A program made the translations under genes and the position numbers. From the IMG/VR virus record IMGVR_UViG_3300046534_000380, positions 1 through 32,259 of that record: a stretch of DNA of 32,259 nucleotides. One strand, 5' to 3'. The number at the start of each line of letters is the position of its first letter. Position 1 is the stretch's first letter. Positions 13,699 to 26,653 of the stretch are shown piece by piece. The DNA comes from a virus. The notes below the pieces were generated by a model. The model searched no databases. It was not told where the DNA came from and was given only the letters and a program-made list of their open reading frames with translations.

Positions 13699-14247
13699 TT
13701 ATGCCTTTACACAATTGTCGACAGTCTTGCCGCCTTTTTGTTTAGTGCCCATACGCTTGTAGCCTTTCCAGCATACTTTGCCGTCAACACCTTTTTGCTT
13801 TTCTTCTGGAAGTGTTTTGTAACTTGTGTTACCACAGTCTGAACACTTAGCAACAGCTTCTGATAATTTGTCAGCTAACGATTCTTTATACTTTTTGTTT
13901 TTCTTAGCACGTGAACCACGTTCCGGAAGTGCCCGCTTACCTTCTTCTACTTCTGCTTTACCGCTTGAAATACCATCTAGTGCATCAGGAGCCATTGCTC
14001 CGTCATCAGCTTCTTGATAGTCTAAGTGATGATAAACAGAACTTAAATAGTCTGAAGCTTTGGTAATCTTTGCTTGTACCCAACCTTCTAAGCCTTCTGA
14101 TTCACTTACGCCTTTAAGCATCTCGTGTAACTTGATTGAATACTTAGCGGCCTTGTATAACTCGGCACGTGCCATTTGTACTTCGTGGTCTTGCTCAGCC
14201 TTATCAGCTAATTCGCCTAAACCTTCTGTTAAATCTTTTTCTCTCAT
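13699..14247 (-). CDS. Conserved phage protein with C-terminal cysteine-rich tail
   Basis: The N-terminus MREKDLTEG contains L-x-E followed by Gly, matching the T4 prohead protease cleavage pattern. Residues 21-80 form a helical domain (HEVQMARAELYKAAKYSIKLHE…) that I recall from cyanophage structural proteins. The C-terminus is basic with Cys135, Cys138, Cys159 and Cys179 in CSDCGN, VCWKGYKRMG and DNCVKA, which could bind zinc. An AGGAG ribosome site and a GATAAATA promoter-like box precede the ATG. Confidence 0.7.
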   Translation of the reverse strand: MREKDLTEGLGELADKAEQDHEVQMARAELYKAAKYSIKLHEMLKGVSESEGLEGWVQAKITKASDYLSSVYHHLDYQEADDGAMAPDALDGISSGKAEVEEGKRALPERGSRAKKNKKYKESLADKLSEAVAKCSDCGNTSYKTLPEEKQKGVDGKVCWKGYKRMGTKQKGGKTVDNCVKA

Positions 14248-14266
14248 CAGTAACTCCTACTAATAT

Positions 14267-14275
14267 ATATTTATC
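14267..14275 (-). promoter_or_regulatory. T4-type late promoter-like box GATAAATAT
   Basis: The minus strand reads GATAAATAT 20 bases before the ATG at 14247, with AGGAG between them. T4 late promoters consist of TATAAATA alone at -10. The spacing would give a short leader that includes the ribosome site. Confidence 0.4.
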
Positions 14276-14609
14276 TTTTTGCGACCTTGCCGCCAATTAA
14301 ATTGTTTTTTATATCTAAAGCGTTTTTAGCTGTTCCGTCTGGATTAGTTGCTTGTGGTGCCTTAGGTAAACCATTCTTGCCTTTTTTCTTGCCTTTAGCA
14401 TATGCATATGTAGGGTTTACTACACTAGCAACACTACCTGAGCTAGTAGCGCCTGCGCTTGCTGATTCTGCAACACTAGGATCATTACAGTTGCAATGTT
14501 CACAATCTGCTGAGCATTTACAATCTTCTCTTTTAGTATCAGCACCACAGCACTTGTCTGAACAGTGTGTGTCTTTTTGTGATTCAGTTATTATTTCATT
14601 TATTTTCAT
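14271..14609 (-). CDS. Cysteine-cluster protein with prohead-type N-terminus
   Basis: MKINEIITES carries an I-x-E then Ser, the T4 prohead targeting and cleavage pattern. Immediately after it comes a cluster of eight cysteines in 26 residues (Cys16, 20, 21, 30, 32, 36, 39, 41) and two histidines, resembling a metal-binding peptide. The remainder is a Gly/Ala/Ser linker, then NPTYAYAKGKKKGKNG and a basic tail, a pattern I recall from C-termini of marine phage proteins. If cleaved after residue 9, the metal-binding part would remain in the head. It overlaps the DUF6356-like gene by 14 bases. Confidence 0.65.
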   Translation of the reverse strand: MKINEIITESQKDTHCSDKCCGADTKREDCKCSADCEHCNCNDPSVAESASAGATSSGSVASVVNPTYAYAKGKKKGKNGLPKAPQATNPDGTAKNALDIKNNLIGGKVAKR

Positions 14610-14799
14610 GTCTATCTTCCAAAATGGTTTTCATTACGTTTGTTGCGGTGTGTACAAATAAACTAGGCGCAACACCATGTATTACTAGCGCCGGGATAAC
14701 TAACTGCAATTGGATCGCTGCCTTTAAAGCACCCTTCATATGCTGAAACTTAGTTTCGCCAACTTCTTCTAAATGTGTTTTGCATTGTTTACTAAACAT
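14596..14799 (-). CDS. DUF6356-like small membrane protein
   Basis: I start this 67-aa protein at the ATG at 14799, which shares one base with the upstream stop (TAATG); a longer form from 14829 would overlap the upstream gene. The order KTHLEEVGETKFQHMKGAL, then a hydrophobic span AAIQLQLVIPALVIHGVAPS, then the HTATNVMKTI end matches DUF6356, a family seen in alphaproteobacteria and their phages, in my recollection. It should have one membrane segment. Function is unknown. Confidence 0.7.
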   Translation of the reverse strand: MFSKQCKTHLEEVGETKFQHMKGALKAAIQLQLVIPALVIHGVAPSLFVHTATNVMKTILEDRHENK

Positions 14800-15995
14800 T
14801 ACTTCTTGCCACCTTTCATGTTTGCACACCAGTGATACATTCTTGCTTTTTCACCTGATGCTTTCTTAGCACGTTTACGTAGTGCTGTAACACTTCCGTT
14901 ACAACTAGCGCCGGACTTCTTTACTCGTCCTGGTCTGCTTTTACCCTTTTTTTTACCGTCTGCAAAGTTTTCTGCAATTACTTCTTCTAATGAAGTATCA
15001 ATCATTCTAACAGTTGCAAATTCTTCACCCATAAGTCTTAGTGCATCAAACCTATGATGTCCGTTTACTATACGTCCTTTAGGATCAATAGTTAAAGGAC
15101 TATAGTTACCGTCTTTTACTTTAGTTAATTGCTTTTCGAGTTTGCGAAAGTTTCTATTCTTTTGTACACTACGTAACTTATTTAATTTAATTTTACCTAG
15201 TTTACCTTGATCTTTAATTTGCGGAGGTGCTTCACCACCAGTCGGAGTGTCATCGTAGTGTGCATCTTGATAACCCGATGCATCTTGTGTGTCATAACCA
15301 ATACGGTTAAGTTGTTTCATAAGATACTTCATTTCTTTTTGCCCAGCGTATGGGGCAATCATAATATCAGGTTCATCAACGTTAGAATTGTCAGGCACAC
15401 TTTTTAAGTTAGCTAAGTTAGTTCCAATCTTTAAAAAATCATATGCTGTATCAGACTTTGTTAAAAAAGTATTCTTAGGATTAGCAATCATCTTGCCTTC
15501 ACTGTACTGAGCTTTACGTTTAGCAATAGTTTTTTTACGTTTGAATTGCGGTGTCTCTAATGCAGCCATTACTTCGTTGTAGCCTCTAAGCATACTCATA
15601 AATGCATCATATCCGGTACCACTTAACACTTTCTCAACACCGTCTGCATTGTAGTCCATGTTATCTTTAAAGCCTTCTAATCTTGTTTTTAATCTATTTT
15701 TTAAGCCGTCGAGTGTATATACGCCTACGCCTTTAACCCATATTTCTAAATTCTTTGGATCAAAGTCTTTTACATCATGTATGTCTGCATACTTGCCTTC
15801 TGAAAGGCCCAAGTTAAACAATACGTTAGTACTCTTACCTTTTACTTTTTTGCTTAGTGTTGGCGGAACTCCGTCTTTGTCTACAGTGTTGCCAAACTTT
15901 GATGCTTCTTTAGGAATCTGATTAGTATCAACATCAACTGTAGTGTTAACGCCTTTTACGATTCTTCCGTCTTCTGATATCTCTTGGAACTTCAT
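14799..15995 (-). CDS. ParB-like (SpoOJ/sulfiredoxin-fold) domain protein with C-terminal Cys tail
   Basis: A 398-aa protein. Residues about 295-340 hold the ParB N-terminal domain pattern (SPLTIDPKGRIVNGHHRFDA, with NGHHR at 311-315), known from CTP-dependent switches and some nucleases. The N-terminus MKFQEISED has an I-x-E near residue 8, like prohead-cleaved proteins, and the C-terminus ends in a basic segment with Cys365 and Cys390 (RMYHWCANMKGGKK) found on other marine phage proteins. The middle part is unassigned. A nuclease or DNA-binding function in the head or injected with the genome is possible. Confidence 0.75.
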   Translation of the reverse strand: MKFQEISEDGRIVKGVNTTVDVDTNQIPKEASKFGNTVDKDGVPPTLSKKVKGKSTNVLFNLGLSEGKYADIHDVKDFDPKNLEIWVKGVGVYTLDGLKNRLKTRLEGFKDNMDYNADGVEKVLSGTGYDAFMSMLRGYNEVMAALETPQFKRKKTIAKRKAQYSEGKMIANPKNTFLTKSDTAYDFLKIGTNLANLKSVPDNSNVDEPDIMIAPYAGQKEMKYLMKQLNRIGYDTQDASGYQDAHYDDTPTGGEAPPQIKDQGKLGKIKLNKLRSVQKNRNFRKLEKQLTKVKDGNYSPLTIDPKGRIVNGHHRFDALRLMGEEFATVRMIDTSLEEVIAENFADGKKKGKSRPGRVKKSGASCNGSVTALRKRAKKASGEKARMYHWCANMKGGKK

Positions 15996-16213
15996 TTCTT
16001 TTTACGGCCCCTAAATTGTGTAGCACCTGTCATATAAGGTTTGCTGAACCAAAGTTTAAACCACTCTTGGTCTCCTGGCTGTAGTCCCATCTTCTTTTCT
16101 TTTTTCTTTAGCGCCGCAGCTGTTTCGCTAGGATTTTCATCAATCTTATATTCAGAATATCCTCTAAATTCACCGACGCCTGCTAGACGTTTTATGTCCT
16201 GTAGCTCATCCAT
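15992..16213 (-). CDS. Conserved small phage protein, 73 aa
   Basis: The start is set at the ATG at 16213 because it overlaps the upstream stop by eight bases, as at other junctions here; the longer frame has no ribosome site. Segments MDELQDIKRLAGVGEFRGY and the aromatic-rich EWFKLWFSKPY are recalled from T4-like marine phages. The end is basic (GRKKK). It overlaps the next gene by four bases (ATGA). Function is unknown. Confidence 0.65.
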   Translation of the reverse strand: MDELQDIKRLAGVGEFRGYSEYKIDENPSETAAALKKKEKKMGLQPGDQEWFKLWFSKPYMTGATQFRGRKKK

Positions 16214-16802
16214 CAGCGCGATCTTTAATGCCCATGCCGTTACGTACAGCATCGTACATTGCCTGTGCTAGTTTAGTATTTGGAACGCCTTGTGCAAATG
16301 CCTTTAAGTTGCCCTGTACAGCAGCCTGACGCATCTTACTTGCGCTCATACCTTCTGCACCATCTGCATCAGGATCACGTTCGCCTGCACTTACAACTTT
16401 TAATGTGTTAAACTTAAATGGTATCTTTCCTGTTTTATCAGGTTGGCCATTGTATGTATCAAACAGCTTTTGAAAGCCATCTACTCTGTCGCTGCCTGCA
16501 ACAAAGATTAAATCTGTATATCCTAAACTTTGTAACTTTTCTAATGCTTGTACAGGTGTACGTACACTTTGATGACCGATGTTAATGCCTGGAAAGAATT
16601 GCTTTGCAAACTTTAATTTAGTTGCAAAGTCTAATGGATCTGTTTTAGGCTTTTGTGTTTGACTAAGAAACAAGTAATGATCGCCTTCATGTTTCTTTAT
16701 TTGATCAACTAACTTACTATGACCAATAGTTGGAGGATTTAACCTACCAAAAGCAAGAACTGCTTTCTTTGATGGTGCTTCAAACAGCTCTTTGAGAAAC
16801 AT
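16206..16802 (-). CDS. Nucleotidyltransferase-like protein with prohead-type N-terminus
   Basis: A HIGH-superfamily nucleotidyltransferase: GRLNPPTIGHSKL (19-31) has the T-x-G-H loop, and MSASKMRQAA near residue 155 matches the ISSSxIR motif. Such enzymes include NMN adenylyltransferase and phosphopantetheine adenylyltransferase, and the specificity is unclear. N-terminal MFLKELFEAP contains L-F-E followed by Ala, matching the T4 prohead protease site, so the enzyme may be packaged in the head. The gene overlaps its downstream neighbour by eight bases. Confidence 0.8.
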   Translation of the reverse strand: MFLKELFEAPSKKAVLAFGRLNPPTIGHSKLVDQIKKHEGDHYLFLSQTQKPKTDPLDFATKLKFAKQFFPGINIGHQSVRTPVQALEKLQSLGYTDLIFVAGSDRVDGFQKLFDTYNGQPDKTGKIPFKFNTLKVVSAGERDPDADGAEGMSASKMRQAAVQGNLKAFAQGVPNTKLAQAMYDAVRNGMGIKDRADG

Positions 16803-17132
16803 TTAGTATTCCCCTTCTTCAATATTTTTTACTTCGTCTTCTTTAATAGCTTCAATAATGTTCAGTTCGTCTTCTTCTGTAAAAACACCTTGTGAACCAC
16901 CTAGTCCGTACTCTTCACAATACTGTTCCATTGCACGTTGAACCATTGGCTTTAAAGTTTCTGCAAAATCTACAGCCTGCCCTTTTCTAAACTTATCAGA
17001 CATACTTGCCATAACAGGGAAGTACTCTTTCCTATAAAACATAGGATTGTTTTTCATATACGTATGACAATCATTTGCCACATTGTATGGCATATCAAAG
17101 TCGTCTTTGTTTGCTAATTCAAATAGTTTCAT
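16803..17132 (-). CDS. Conserved T4-like phage protein, 109 aa
   Basis: An acidic, mostly helical protein. MKLFELANKDDF has L-F-E in its first residues, and MKNNPMFYRKEYFPVMASM and the acidic C-terminal half ending EEGEY are patterns I recall in T4-like cyanophage proteins. No enzyme motif is seen. Its stop abuts the start of the nucleotidyltransferase gene. The segment FTEEDELNIIEAI is a predicted amphipathic helix. Confidence 0.7.
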   Translation of the reverse strand: MKLFELANKDDFDMPYNVANDCHTYMKNNPMFYRKEYFPVMASMSDKFRKGQAVDFAETLKPMVQRAMEQYCEEYGLGGSQGVFTEEDELNIIEAIKEDEVKNIEEGEY

Positions 17133-17133
17133 A

Positions 17134-17307
17134 CTAGCTCTCTTTGCTTACGAAATCTTCATACTTAGTTCCGTATGGATTAGATGCTATTAAGATGCTG
17201 TCATTTTCTGGCTGATAATCATCTGATTCTGTGTTATCTAATCCGTTTATCTTAGCTAAACGATTGCCTAAATCTCTTATTTGTTCTGCTTCTGACTTTT
17301 TTACCAT
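17134..17307 (-). CDS. Small protein, 57 aa
   Basis: The ATG at 17307 lies in the last bases of the upstream gene (ATGGTAA overlap, seven bases), and the TAG at 17134 is two bases before the next gene, so it fills this gap precisely. The protein starts MVKKSEAEQIRDLGNRLAK, an amphipathic helix, and ends KYEDFVSKES. It is acidic with no recognised motif. The tight fit between neighbours supports reality. Confidence 0.7.
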   Translation of the reverse strand: MVKKSEAEQIRDLGNRLAKINGLDNTESDDYQPENDSILIASNPYGTKYEDFVSKES

Positions 17308-17894
17308 TTTCTACAACTCCAATATCTTGCTTTTGTGCGTGGACCCGGGTTATCACAATTATGTCTTGCTCTAAACGAACGTCTCGCTGCGGGGTTATTC
17401 TTCTTAATACTCATTGCTTTACCTTTGACACTGCTACCGCCGTGTCCAAAGTTTACTTTTTTAGTATTGCCTGTCTTAGGATCTTTAACATAAACTTTAA
17501 ATTTCTTAGTATCGCCTTGCATAGGCTTGCCAAGTTTAACTTTACGACCTTGGTACTCTGCTTCGTCTACTTCTTCATCTTCGTTGTACCACATTTCGCC
17601 ATACTGTTCGTAAAACTCGTCATCGTCATCATATGTTTCTTCAACAACAGGACTGTCATCTTCTGTTGACACTTCGATGTCAAAGTCTTCATACCCTTCA
17701 CTAAATAAAAAGTTTGCAAGTTTGTCTGCATACTCGTCTGATTCTTCTTCGCTTAATAATCTTGGTAGCGGTATATGATAGGCAGAACCACCTTGTTCTG
17801 TTTCTAATAATTCTGCACCTGGAAAAATACTTTCATCTAAACTTTCGTTTAAATTATTGTTCTTTTCCATTACTACTCTTACAAAATGTTCCAT
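17301..17894 (-). CDS. Phage protein with acidic linker and C-terminal Cys/basic tail
   Basis: Residues 1-110 are strongly acidic with low complexity. From about 112 a compact basic domain follows (YQGRKVKLGKPM, then KKFKVYVKDPKTGNTKKV), and the end RARHNCDNPGPRTKARYWSC has Cys180 and Cys194. This C-terminal module is widespread in marine myophage proteins in my recollection and may be a small zinc-binding or crosslinking element. N-terminal LNESLDES carries L-x-E-S, resembling prohead cleavage sites. A late promoter-like box and an AGCAGG ribosome site precede the ATG. Confidence 0.75.
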   Translation of the reverse strand: MEHFVRVVMEKNNNLNESLDESIFPGAELLETEQGGSAYHIPLPRLLSEEESDEYADKLANFLFSEGYEDFDIEVSTEDDSPVVEETYDDDDEFYEQYGEMWYNEDEEVDEAEYQGRKVKLGKPMQGDTKKFKVYVKDPKTGNTKKVNFGHGGSSVKGKAMSIKKNNPAARRSFRARHNCDNPGPRTKARYWSCRKW

Positions 17895-24811: not shown

Positions 24812-24990
24812 TTATGTCCTCTTTTCGCAAGTTCATTACGAATTTTTTGACGTCTTTTAGGCTGTGTGTTCTTATTTTCTAAGGCCTCGGTCAACTCAGA
24901 CACTAACGTAGACTTCATATAAAAGTGTTCGGTTTTAGCTTTACCAGATTTATCTCTAACTGTTTGGCTTGGTTTAAATTTTAGTGGCAT
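24805..24990 (-). CDS. Conserved small basic phage protein, 61 aa
   Basis: A Lys-rich protein beginning MPLKFKPSQTVRDKSGKAKT and ending RNELAKRGHKC. I recall homologues in T4-like cyanophages with the same start (MPLKFKPSQ). The ATG shares one base with the iscU stop (TAATG), so it is translated with iscU. The helical, basic nature suggests nucleic acid contact, without direct evidence. Confidence 0.7.
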   Translation of the reverse strand: MPLKFKPSQTVRDKSGKAKTEHFYMKSTLVSELTEALENKNTQPKRRQKIRNELAKRGHKC

Positions 24991-25415
24991 TATTTTGGTC
25001 CTCCGTTATGTTGTCTTTTTTCTCTTTTACTATCCCAATCGTTGATAGCTTTCTTAATTGAATCTTCTGCTAGTACACTACAATGTAATTTAATTGGTGG
25101 TAAGTCTAAGGCCTCTGCAATATCTTTATCTTTAATTTCTCTTGCTTCGTCAATAGTTTTTCCTTTAAGCATTTCAACAAACATTGTTGAACTTGCAATA
25201 GCACTTCCACAACCATATGTTTTAAAAACTACATCTTCAATTTTGTCATCGTCATCTAGTTTAAGTTGTAAACGCATTACATCACCACATGCAGGCGCAC
25301 CAGTCATTCCTGTCGCTACCTTAGGATCGTTTGGATCAAACTTCCCTACATTAAATTTGTCGGGGTCTTTTAATACATTTTTAAATCTTTTTGTTACTTC
25401 TTCTGAATATGCCAT
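24990..25415 (-). CDS. iscU: IscU iron-sulfur scaffold protein
   Basis: IscU is the scaffold on which IscS and an electron donor build [2Fe-2S] clusters. All ligands are present: Cys43 and Asp45 in GAPACGD, Cys69 in TYGCGSAIASS, and His111/Cys112 in KLHCSVLAEDS. LPPIK (105-109) is the HscA-binding motif. A short extra segment near residues 10-20 distinguishes it from E. coli IscU. It is coupled to iscS, 20 bases downstream with its own AAGGA site. The conservation implies activity rather than decay. Confidence 0.95.
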   Translation of the reverse strand: MAYSEEVTKRFKNVLKDPDKFNVGKFDPNDPKVATGMTGAPACGDVMRLQLKLDDDDKIEDVVFKTYGCGSAIASSTMFVEMLKGKTIDEAREIKDKDIAEALDLPPIKLHCSVLAEDSIKKAINDWDSKREKRQHNGGPK

Positions 25416-25436
25416 AATAATTCCTTAATAATTCCT
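25415..25436 (-). repeat. Tandem 11-base repeat with duplicated ribosome sites
   Basis: TAATAATTCCT occurs twice in tandem between iscS and iscU. On the minus strand each copy gives AGGAATTATTA, so AAGGA ribosome sites are duplicated before the iscU ATG. Confidence 0.7.
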
Positions 25437-26653
25437 TAATGCATGTACTCGTCCCAGTTAAACGCTTCCATATCAACGCCGTCTTGGTACATGTCCCATA
25501 ATGGTGATAGTTGTCTTAATTTCTCAACTACATCAATTAGTGTATCTGCACATTGATCAATGTCTTCAAGGGTTGTTTGTCTGCCGAAACTAAATCTTAT
25601 GCTACTATGTGCTAACTCATCTGCTCTTCCTAATGCACGTAATACATAACTTGGTTCAAGTGTTGCACTTGTACATGCACTACCGCTACTTACAGCAACG
25701 TTTTCTAAAGCCATAATTAAACTTTCGCCTTCTACAAAATTAAAACTAACATTTAGAATGTTCTTAACTTTGTGATCCATACTACCATTTAAGTATACTT
25801 CTTCGACGTCTTTAACTCTGTTGTATAGTCTATCATGTAGTATGCCCACATGAGCAGTGTCTTGTTCGAATCTTTCTTTTGCAATTCTAAATGCTTCTCC
25901 CATTCCCACAATTTGATGTGTAGGTAATGTGCCACTTCTGTTGCCTCGTTCGTGACCACCGCCATGCATTTGTGCTCTAATTCTTGCACGTGGCTTACGT
26001 CTAATATATAATGCTCCAACACCTTTAGGACCATATGTTTTGTGTGCTGATAGACTCATTAAGTGAACTGGCAGTTCTGCTAAATTAATTTCAATTTTAC
26101 CAGTTGCTTGTGCGGCATCAACATGGAATGTAATTTTCTTTTCAAAGCAAAGTTTACCGATGCCTTCAATATCATTAATTGTGCCAAGTTCGTTATTAAT
26201 ATACATAATACTTACAAGTATTGTATCTTCTCTGATAGCGTCTGCAATCATTTGTGCTGTGATTATACCATTTTCATTAGGTTCAAGATATGTAACTTCA
26301 AAGCCTTCGCGTTCAAGTTCTCTACAAGGGTCTAATACTGCCTTATGCTCAATCTTACTTGTTACAATGTGTTTACCATTGGTCTCATAAAATTGTGCTG
26401 TGCCTTTAACAGCAAGGTTGTCTGCTTCAGTAGCACCACTTGTAAATATAATTTCTCTTGGATCAGCACCAATAAGATCTGCCACTTGTTGTCTTGCTGT
26501 GTCAATTGCTTGATCAGCTCCCCAACCAAAGCTATGACTTCTACTTGCTGGATTACCAAACTCACCATCAAACGTGAGGAATTTAGCCATTAGGTCTGCA
26601 ACCTTGGGATCGCATGGCGTCGTGGCTGCGTAGTCTAAATATATTCTTTTCAT
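25436..26653 (-). CDS. iscS: Cysteine desulfurase IscS
   Basis: IscS takes sulfur from cysteine for clusters and tRNA thiolation. [10 protein letters not shown] opens the protein; [10 protein letters not shown] (202-211) holds the PLP lysine Lys205, preceded by [10 protein letters not shown] (177-186) and His104; [17 protein letters not shown] (322-338) is the active-site loop with Cys327. The C-terminal [18 protein letters not shown] matches E. coli IscS, where it contacts IscU. At 405 aa it is full length. Upstream is a near-perfect promoter (26678-26706), downstream iscU. It is closer to housekeeping IscS than to the DndA type. Confidence 0.97.

Follow-up and report, generated by a model that had tools for sequence, protein, structure and literature searches.

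Why do neighbouring genes of an uncultured marine phage start with short peptides that end in the same kind of site? The question arises in IMG/VR record IMGVR_UViG_3300046534_000380, which we analysed whole (32,259 bases, hereafter the window) and whose genes are almost all on the minus strand; a family B DNA polymerase, a ClpA/B-like ATPase, DnaJ, a peptide deformylase and IscS/NifU-like proteins point to a large marine T4-like phage. A preliminary description of this sequence had proposed that five neighbouring proteins, among them a nucleotidyltransferase and a ParB-like protein, begin with a peptide ending in L/I-x-E, like those that the gp21 protease removes from T4 internal head proteins, and that they may be packaged and injected with the DNA. 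We argue that four of the five, and probably also the product of 17301-17894, are most likely cargo that is directed to the prohead and trimmed by a gp21-type protease. For the account as a whole, that of targeted, protease-trimmed, modular virion cargo resembling the T4 internal proteins, we put the probability at roughly 0.8.

Conserved N-terminal peptides

All five N-termini occur in the window as written, on the minus strand and with sensible starts, at 14247 (MREKDLTE-G), 14609 (MKINEIITE-S), 15995 (MKFQEISE-D), 16802 (MFLKELFE-A) and 17132 (MKLFE-L). At a base rate of 10%, finding [LI]xE in five of eight consecutive open reading frames (ORFs) has a probability of about 5e-4, a post hoc figure. 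Since the 32-kb window contains no head genes, related contigs were needed, and 158 related loci were gathered by searching for relatives of the nucleotidyltransferase and of the ParB-like protein. Note that this sample was thus picked via two of the window proteins and that its loci share ancestry. Genes in these loci were called automatically, with starts chosen without regard to the motif, and proteins were clustered from residue 19 onward.

Among 1,837 unique predicted proteins from the related loci, 27.4% carry [LI]xE with the Glu at residues 5-14; in control windows of the same size located deeper in the proteins the figure is 10-11% for three and 4% for another that runs near the length cut. 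When proteins are grouped by their bodies, 17 of 104 families keep the motif at the N-terminus in at least 70% of members, a level that 0-5 families (mean 2.3) reach in the control windows. Some of the 17 probably owe it to body sequence rather than to a tag (MVEKKSPAQEIRELG is an example), so that we count the unrelated protein families which, judged from sequence, bear the peptide as a dozen or more. The peptides themselves vary, with 167 distinct versions over the 13 families examined and 32 in the family of 14271-14609, and have in common the layout M-[KR]-[ILV]-x-[ED]-[LI]-x-E. MRLRQLFE, MRLRQLYE and MKLRQLYE each occur both on the nucleotidyltransferase and on an unrelated module, GRIVKG, before which relatives carry a large variety of peptides that end in [LI]xE. 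The proposed signature therefore holds up for four of the window proteins, in whose families the site is conserved (Table 1). It does not for the fifth, the family of which keeps only M[KR][LI]xE[FL].

Joints between modules

Module boundaries inside proteins carry the [hydrophobic]-x-E signature as well; the preliminary description had caught the N-terminal peptides and missed these internal sites and the C-terminal modules that follow them. One case is a C-terminal module of 57 residues (NFADGKKKGKSRPGR...YHWCANM, the NFADG module) that is joined to many unrelated passengers. The residue before the joint (P1; a slash marks the cut or presumed cut below) is Glu in 43/43 dereplicated contexts, and P3 is hydrophobic in 35 of the 42 internal cases against a background of 0.336 (p = 4e-11), compared with 4/42 at P2, 7/42 at P4 and 8/42 at P5. 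Given that the upstream residues otherwise differ, shared ancestry alone would not hold P3 hydrophobic, while the need for a contact at both P3 and P1 could.

Other modules behave in the same way. Preceding the AEYQGRKV module, carried in the window by a protein of 197 residues (17301-17894), P1 is Glu and P3 hydrophobic in 7/7 dereplicated contexts each; GLGELA..DHEVQMA follows a Glu in 16/17 dereplicated contexts and fits the signature in 7/8 internal ones; DTHCSDKCC has a Glu directly before it in relatives, in both N-terminal and internal placements; and GRIVKG ends in NLG[LM]xE in 20/24 dereplicated downstream contexts. The joints of the window itself read LSE/GKYADIH and VIAE/NFADG (14799-15995), VAE/SASAG (14271-14609) and VDE/AEYQG (17301-17894). 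GRIVKG stands alone in Sinorhizobium phage Phosso. A search of 50,697 phage records with the NFADG module gave no match at E 0.01, so that an isolate of this lineage is absent from the collections searched.

A capsid arm and a prohead protease in a related contig

One related contig of 181,934 bases (G003, containing locus L093) has the same gene cluster as the window and also encodes head proteins: an S77 protease (Pfam E 1e-25; 32% identical to T4 gp21, E 6e-21), a protein resembling a scaffold, and a capsid protein of the gp23 type (T4 gp23, E 4e-38). Pfam Peptidase_S77 matched nothing in the window and, among 20 related contigs, only G003. T4 gp23 is cut at FLTE/AEIGG, a well-established site, and in the matching region the G003 major capsid protein reads YLAE/TATAGTTSAGNVATL. 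We find this arm again, with its Glu in the same position, in 24 or more proteins of cargo type, among them that of 14271-14609 in the window; the match scores 68 at best, and shuffled copies reach no more than 43.

Some further observations may be added. In two cyanophages, S-CREM2 virion protein ORF160 (L201:12843-13736) and S-SCSM1 gp275 (L207:43121-43306) contain a near copy of their own capsid arm after the presumed cut (GFTGAAAPEGPVAGYDPLM versus GFTGAAAPGGPNAGFDPVM, judged by eye), which parallels the SAGNVA arm of the window lineage. The G003 scaffold-like protein (L169:9229-10317) ends in VVDIRRLAGLN, a short RLAG-type peptide resembling starts or ends of cargo-type proteins (ELDRIKMLAGV; MDELQDIKRLAGV in window 15992-16252) and possibly, to go by its sequence, a second core-binding tag. 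Away from the cluster, near putative head-tail genes, G003 172057-172620 (L172:12057-12620) starts MKTFTQILTE/SKKTYEFKIGVAGE, close to the T4 targeting sequence.

Related proteins in cyanophage virions

Are proteins with such peptides found in virions? The S-SCSM1 report lists 45 virion proteins, including an NMNAT, a homologue of the nucleotidyltransferase in the window (PMC9602691). In the S-SCSM1 record this gene and four adjacent syntenic genes (gp089, gp282, gp280, gp279) are all labelled as virion proteins, and the NMNAT starts MKSFLQFLKE/AAESGA. For S-CREM2, Table 3 of the paper gives four non-structural enzymes besides two endolysins (PMC10665884): a cytidylyltransferase (MKNFSSFLTE/A), an S-adenosylmethionine (SAM) hydrolase (MKDFDSFLEE/), a kinase (MKRFDAFLTE/) and a Cas9-like protein (...FASFMAE/A). 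The S-SZBM1 cytidylyltransferase, listed in the virion (PMC9146016), starts MRFRQFIIE/A. All three virion-derived relatives of the cytidyl/NMN-adenylyltransferase type whose sequences we examined thus carry such a peptide. In S-CREM2 and S-SCSM1, moreover, the peptide tends to go with detection by mass spectrometry (MS): [LI]xE occurs in 7/26 MS-detected non-structural proteins of S-CREM2 versus 15/160 undetected ones (p = 0.018, annotated proteins), and in 5/16 versus 24/232 for S-SCSM1 (p = 0.027), where the undetected set consists of ORF calls made in this analysis. A stricter pattern resembling a capsid targeting sequence gives p = 6e-4 in S-CREM2, a value on which we do not rely; the pattern was chosen after seeing those N-termini and did not reach significance in S-SCSM1.

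Two proteins without the peptide may be set beside these. The cytidyltransferase of jumbo phage CBB, CBB_73, starts MVYGRFNPVHLGH with no N-terminal extension and does not appear in the stretch of the CBB virion table between CBB_38 and CBB_104; S-SZBM1 ORF141 (MAKNTHLEHLED) likewise has no peptide and is not named in the available text of the virion table. The available parts of the three cyanophage virion papers propose no targeting or cleavage mechanism (PMC9602691, PMC10665884, PMC9146016), and a full-text literature search combining capsid targeting sequence and cyanophage returned a single T4 review.

The Cas9-like nuclease reported from S-CREM2 virions (ORF12, L202:4705-7314) has its T4-like site near the N-terminus, so that the phage may inject a Cas9-like protein. 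A protein of S-SCSM1 (NC_070962) starting MKTFKQFMSESVNISGDF has a near-T4 targeting peptide and no virion label, and is a candidate for undetected cargo.

Proposed mechanism and its alternatives

In the mechanism that we propose, genes 13699-16802 (probably also 17301-17894) would encode virion cargo, each protein being taken into the prohead scaffold core by an N-terminal peptide of roughly 8-9 residues, which the phage's gp21-type S77 protease would then remove by a cut after Glu at [LIVM]-x-E. The protease would also cut where modules meet at [LIVM]-x-E, as at the joint before the basic, Cys-containing C-terminal module, and the trimmed products would remain in the head and enter the host with the DNA. 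By analogy with T4 IPI and Alt and with cyanophage cargo, they may act early in NAD or nucleotide metabolism or block host defence.

A number of points weigh against this account. All that is known of the phage is a 32-kb contig that lacks head genes, and its cleavage and virion presence are what we infer. The S77 protease turned up in one of 20 contigs, most of which are fragments, making its absence elsewhere unreadable. MKLFE was rejected as a cleavage site, which leaves the fifth gene a misfit (Table 1). On the proteomic side, the association with MS detection is moderate, many structural-region proteins being without the motif; the MS-detected S-SCSM1 proteins gp280 and gp279 show no clear peptide; the stricter pattern occurs in 1/16 versus 2/232 S-SCSM1 proteins (p = 0.18); and the proteome authors, in the parts of their papers available, weigh virion carriage or co-purification (PMC9602691, PMC10665884, PMC9146016).

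Three other scenarios might produce the pattern. Imagine that the N-terminal peptide were an uncut helix docking onto the scaffold or some other partner, with the Glu as part of the docking motif. The peptides do look amphipathic (M[KR]hx[ED][LI]xE), and T4-type targeting needs no cut. However, hydrophobic P3 and Glu at P1 recur at internal joints with unrelated upstream sequence, P6 is not enriched there (12/42 versus a background of 0.34), and the same Glu precedes the capsid-protein arm; unrelated upstream residues together with an unenriched P6 indicate that a helix is not the explanation, and we consider this scenario unlikely. It is very unlikely, in our view, that the cutting or the targeting involves something other than the prohead, such as a housekeeping protease of host or phage or a compartment of the infected cell: the window does encode a ClpA/B-like AAA protein (PHROG_4871), yet the site matches both the gp21 substrate type and the cut region of the capsid protein itself, and peptide-bearing homologues are found in virions. 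That [LI]xE is simply common, at about 10% per protein, and happens to be shared by neighbours through chance and ancestry is hardly credible given the excess of conserving families over controls, the differing peptides on unrelated bodies and, above all, the P3 statistic at internal joints, which strongly disfavours it.

If the proteins are indeed targeted and trimmed cargo, the findings suggest that enzymes and small proteins are packed for injection with DNA across a whole family of marine phages, and provide a simple sequence rule for the proteins that this large group may carry into hosts. Such a rule would account for the repeated finding of NAD-type nucleotidyltransferases, SAM hydrolase, kinases and a Cas9-like protein in cyanophage virion proteomes. 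We are evenly divided on a wider proposal, in which uncultured marine T4-like phages would use a cassette system of packaged polyproteins, with interchangeable modules and targeting peptides and prohead-protease joints, that are split in the head into several products, some bearing the post-cleavage arm of the capsid protein. Packaged polyproteins, if the internal joints are cut, would be an addition to phage biology, and the peptides would offer ready-made tags with which proteins can be packed into phage heads.

Features of the proposed cargo genes

Table 1. Features of the proposed cargo region in the window, with coordinates, strand and basis of assignment.
Feature	Position	Strand	Basis
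Modular protein, 182 residues, GLGELA..DHEVQMA	13699..14247	-	ORF and family
Predicted C-terminal module VCWKGYKRMGTKQKGGKTVDNCVKA, phrog_4359-like	13702..13803	-	phrog_4359 E 2e-8
Putative targeting peptide MREKDLTE/ of GLGELA..DHEVQMA protein	14224..14247	-	Site in 50/60 family members
Small protein, DTHCSDKCCG Cys-rich module and capsid-arm segment	14271..14609	-	E before module in relatives
Capsid-arm-like segment SASAGATSSGSVASVVN after SVAE/	14415..14465	-	Matches major capsid arm of relative
Putative targeting peptide MKINEIITE/ of Cys-rich small protein	14583..14609	-	Site in 39/47 family members
Modular protein, 398 residues, ParB-like domain near residues 269-339	14799..15995	-	PHROG_620 E 7e-6
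C-terminal module NFADGKKKGKSRPGR...YHWCANMKGGKK after VIAE/	14802..14969	-	Joint statistics, NFADG module
GRIVKGVNTT...NLGLSE module, residues 9-66, E site at each end	15798..15971	-	NLG[LM]xE end
Putative targeting peptide MKFQEISE/ of ParB-like protein	15972..15995	-	E8 invariant, 10/10
HxGH-type cytidyl/NMN-adenylyltransferase-like enzyme, 198 residues	16206..16802	-	PHROG_3041 E 2e-50; Foldseek; virion-detected relatives
Putative targeting peptide MFLKELFE/ of nucleotidyltransferase	16779..16802	-	E8 invariant in 34/34 relatives
Neighbour of 109 residues starting MKLFEL, cargo status doubtful	16803..17132	-	[LIVMFY]xE in only 15/71 relatives
AEYQGRKV...YWSCRKW C-terminal module after EEVDE/	17304..17561	-	phrog_7595 E 2e-12

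The nucleotidyltransferase contains NPPTIGH and MSASKMR and is predicted with confidence to adopt the fold of an HxGH nucleotidyltransferase, starting near residue 11, the mean predicted local distance difference test score (pLDDT) being 57 for residues 1-10 and about 90 or more for most of the body; motif and fold place it in the HxGH superfamily (NMNAT/PPAT). Top Foldseek matches are PPAT and NadD/NMNAT structures (E 3e-6 to 2e-4), that is, both phosphopantetheine and nicotinate mononucleotide adenylyltransferases; our guess is an enzyme, possibly NMN adenylyltransferase-like, that works on pools of NAD or nucleotides early on. Its scores lie under the curated cut-offs of Pfam (17.1 of 21 bits) and NCBIfam (18 of 164 bits), and its profile found no match among the sequences of solved structures. 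At 359 residues, the closest long relative (L174-L179, G001 57375-58454) shows that the C-terminal part differs even between close relatives.

For the ParB/sulfiredoxin-type domain, the basis is a weak match to PHROG_620, with none in Pfam; the AlphaFold2 model of this protein was not used (mean pLDDT 43). The rest of the proposed cargo consists of small, basic or Cys-rich modules. Over about 34 residues, cyanophage proteins match the module VCWKGYKRMGTKQKGGKTVDNCVKA at 70-85%. PADLOC, run on the cargo proteins, returned one weak, chance-like match and nothing else. Elsewhere in the window, at 24990-26653, a NifU-like scaffold adjoins an IscS-type aminotransferase gene, a phage-borne set for iron-sulfur cluster assembly.

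Comparison with known systems

The likeness to T4 that had been proposed is borne out by the T4 sequences themselves (IPII and IPIII, MKTYQEFIAE/A; Alt, MELITELFDE/D), by the gp21-type protease of G003 and by the three tagged virion homologues. T4 IPI, IPII, IPIII and Alt (PMC3012670) share with the window lineage a short peptide at the N-terminus that ends in (L/I/F)-x-E, carried in its (L/I)-x-E form by four of the five window proteins, as well as unrelated, fast-changing bodies, a gp21-type protease in the lineage and small basic or enzymatic cargo. The layout M[KR]...[ED][LIF]..E of the window peptides is like that of MKTYQEFIAE, whereas the letters differ, the cyanophage copies (MKSFLQFLKE) being closer. 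The window peptide is also usually 8 residues long rather than the 10 of T4, and the bodies are unrelated to those of T4. Internal joints, shared C-terminal modules, many more families and a cargo that would include a nucleotidyltransferase and a ParB-like protein further set the window lineage apart.

The NMNAT and cytidylyltransferases of S-SCSM1, S-CREM2 and S-SZBM1 are homologous to the window enzyme, and their virion copies have a like N-terminal peptide; in S-SCSM1 and S-SZBM1 the gene also occupies a syntenic place between gp41-type helicase and primase genes. For them, presence in virions is reported, with co-purification left open. The ejection proteins of SPN3US and phiKZ (PMC10052503) offer a more distant parallel: these, too, are large phages that pack many proteins, with propeptides cut after Glu in the head by prohead protease gp245, but these propeptides are mostly 111-254 residues long, with only two of 20-24, and their head proteins differ.

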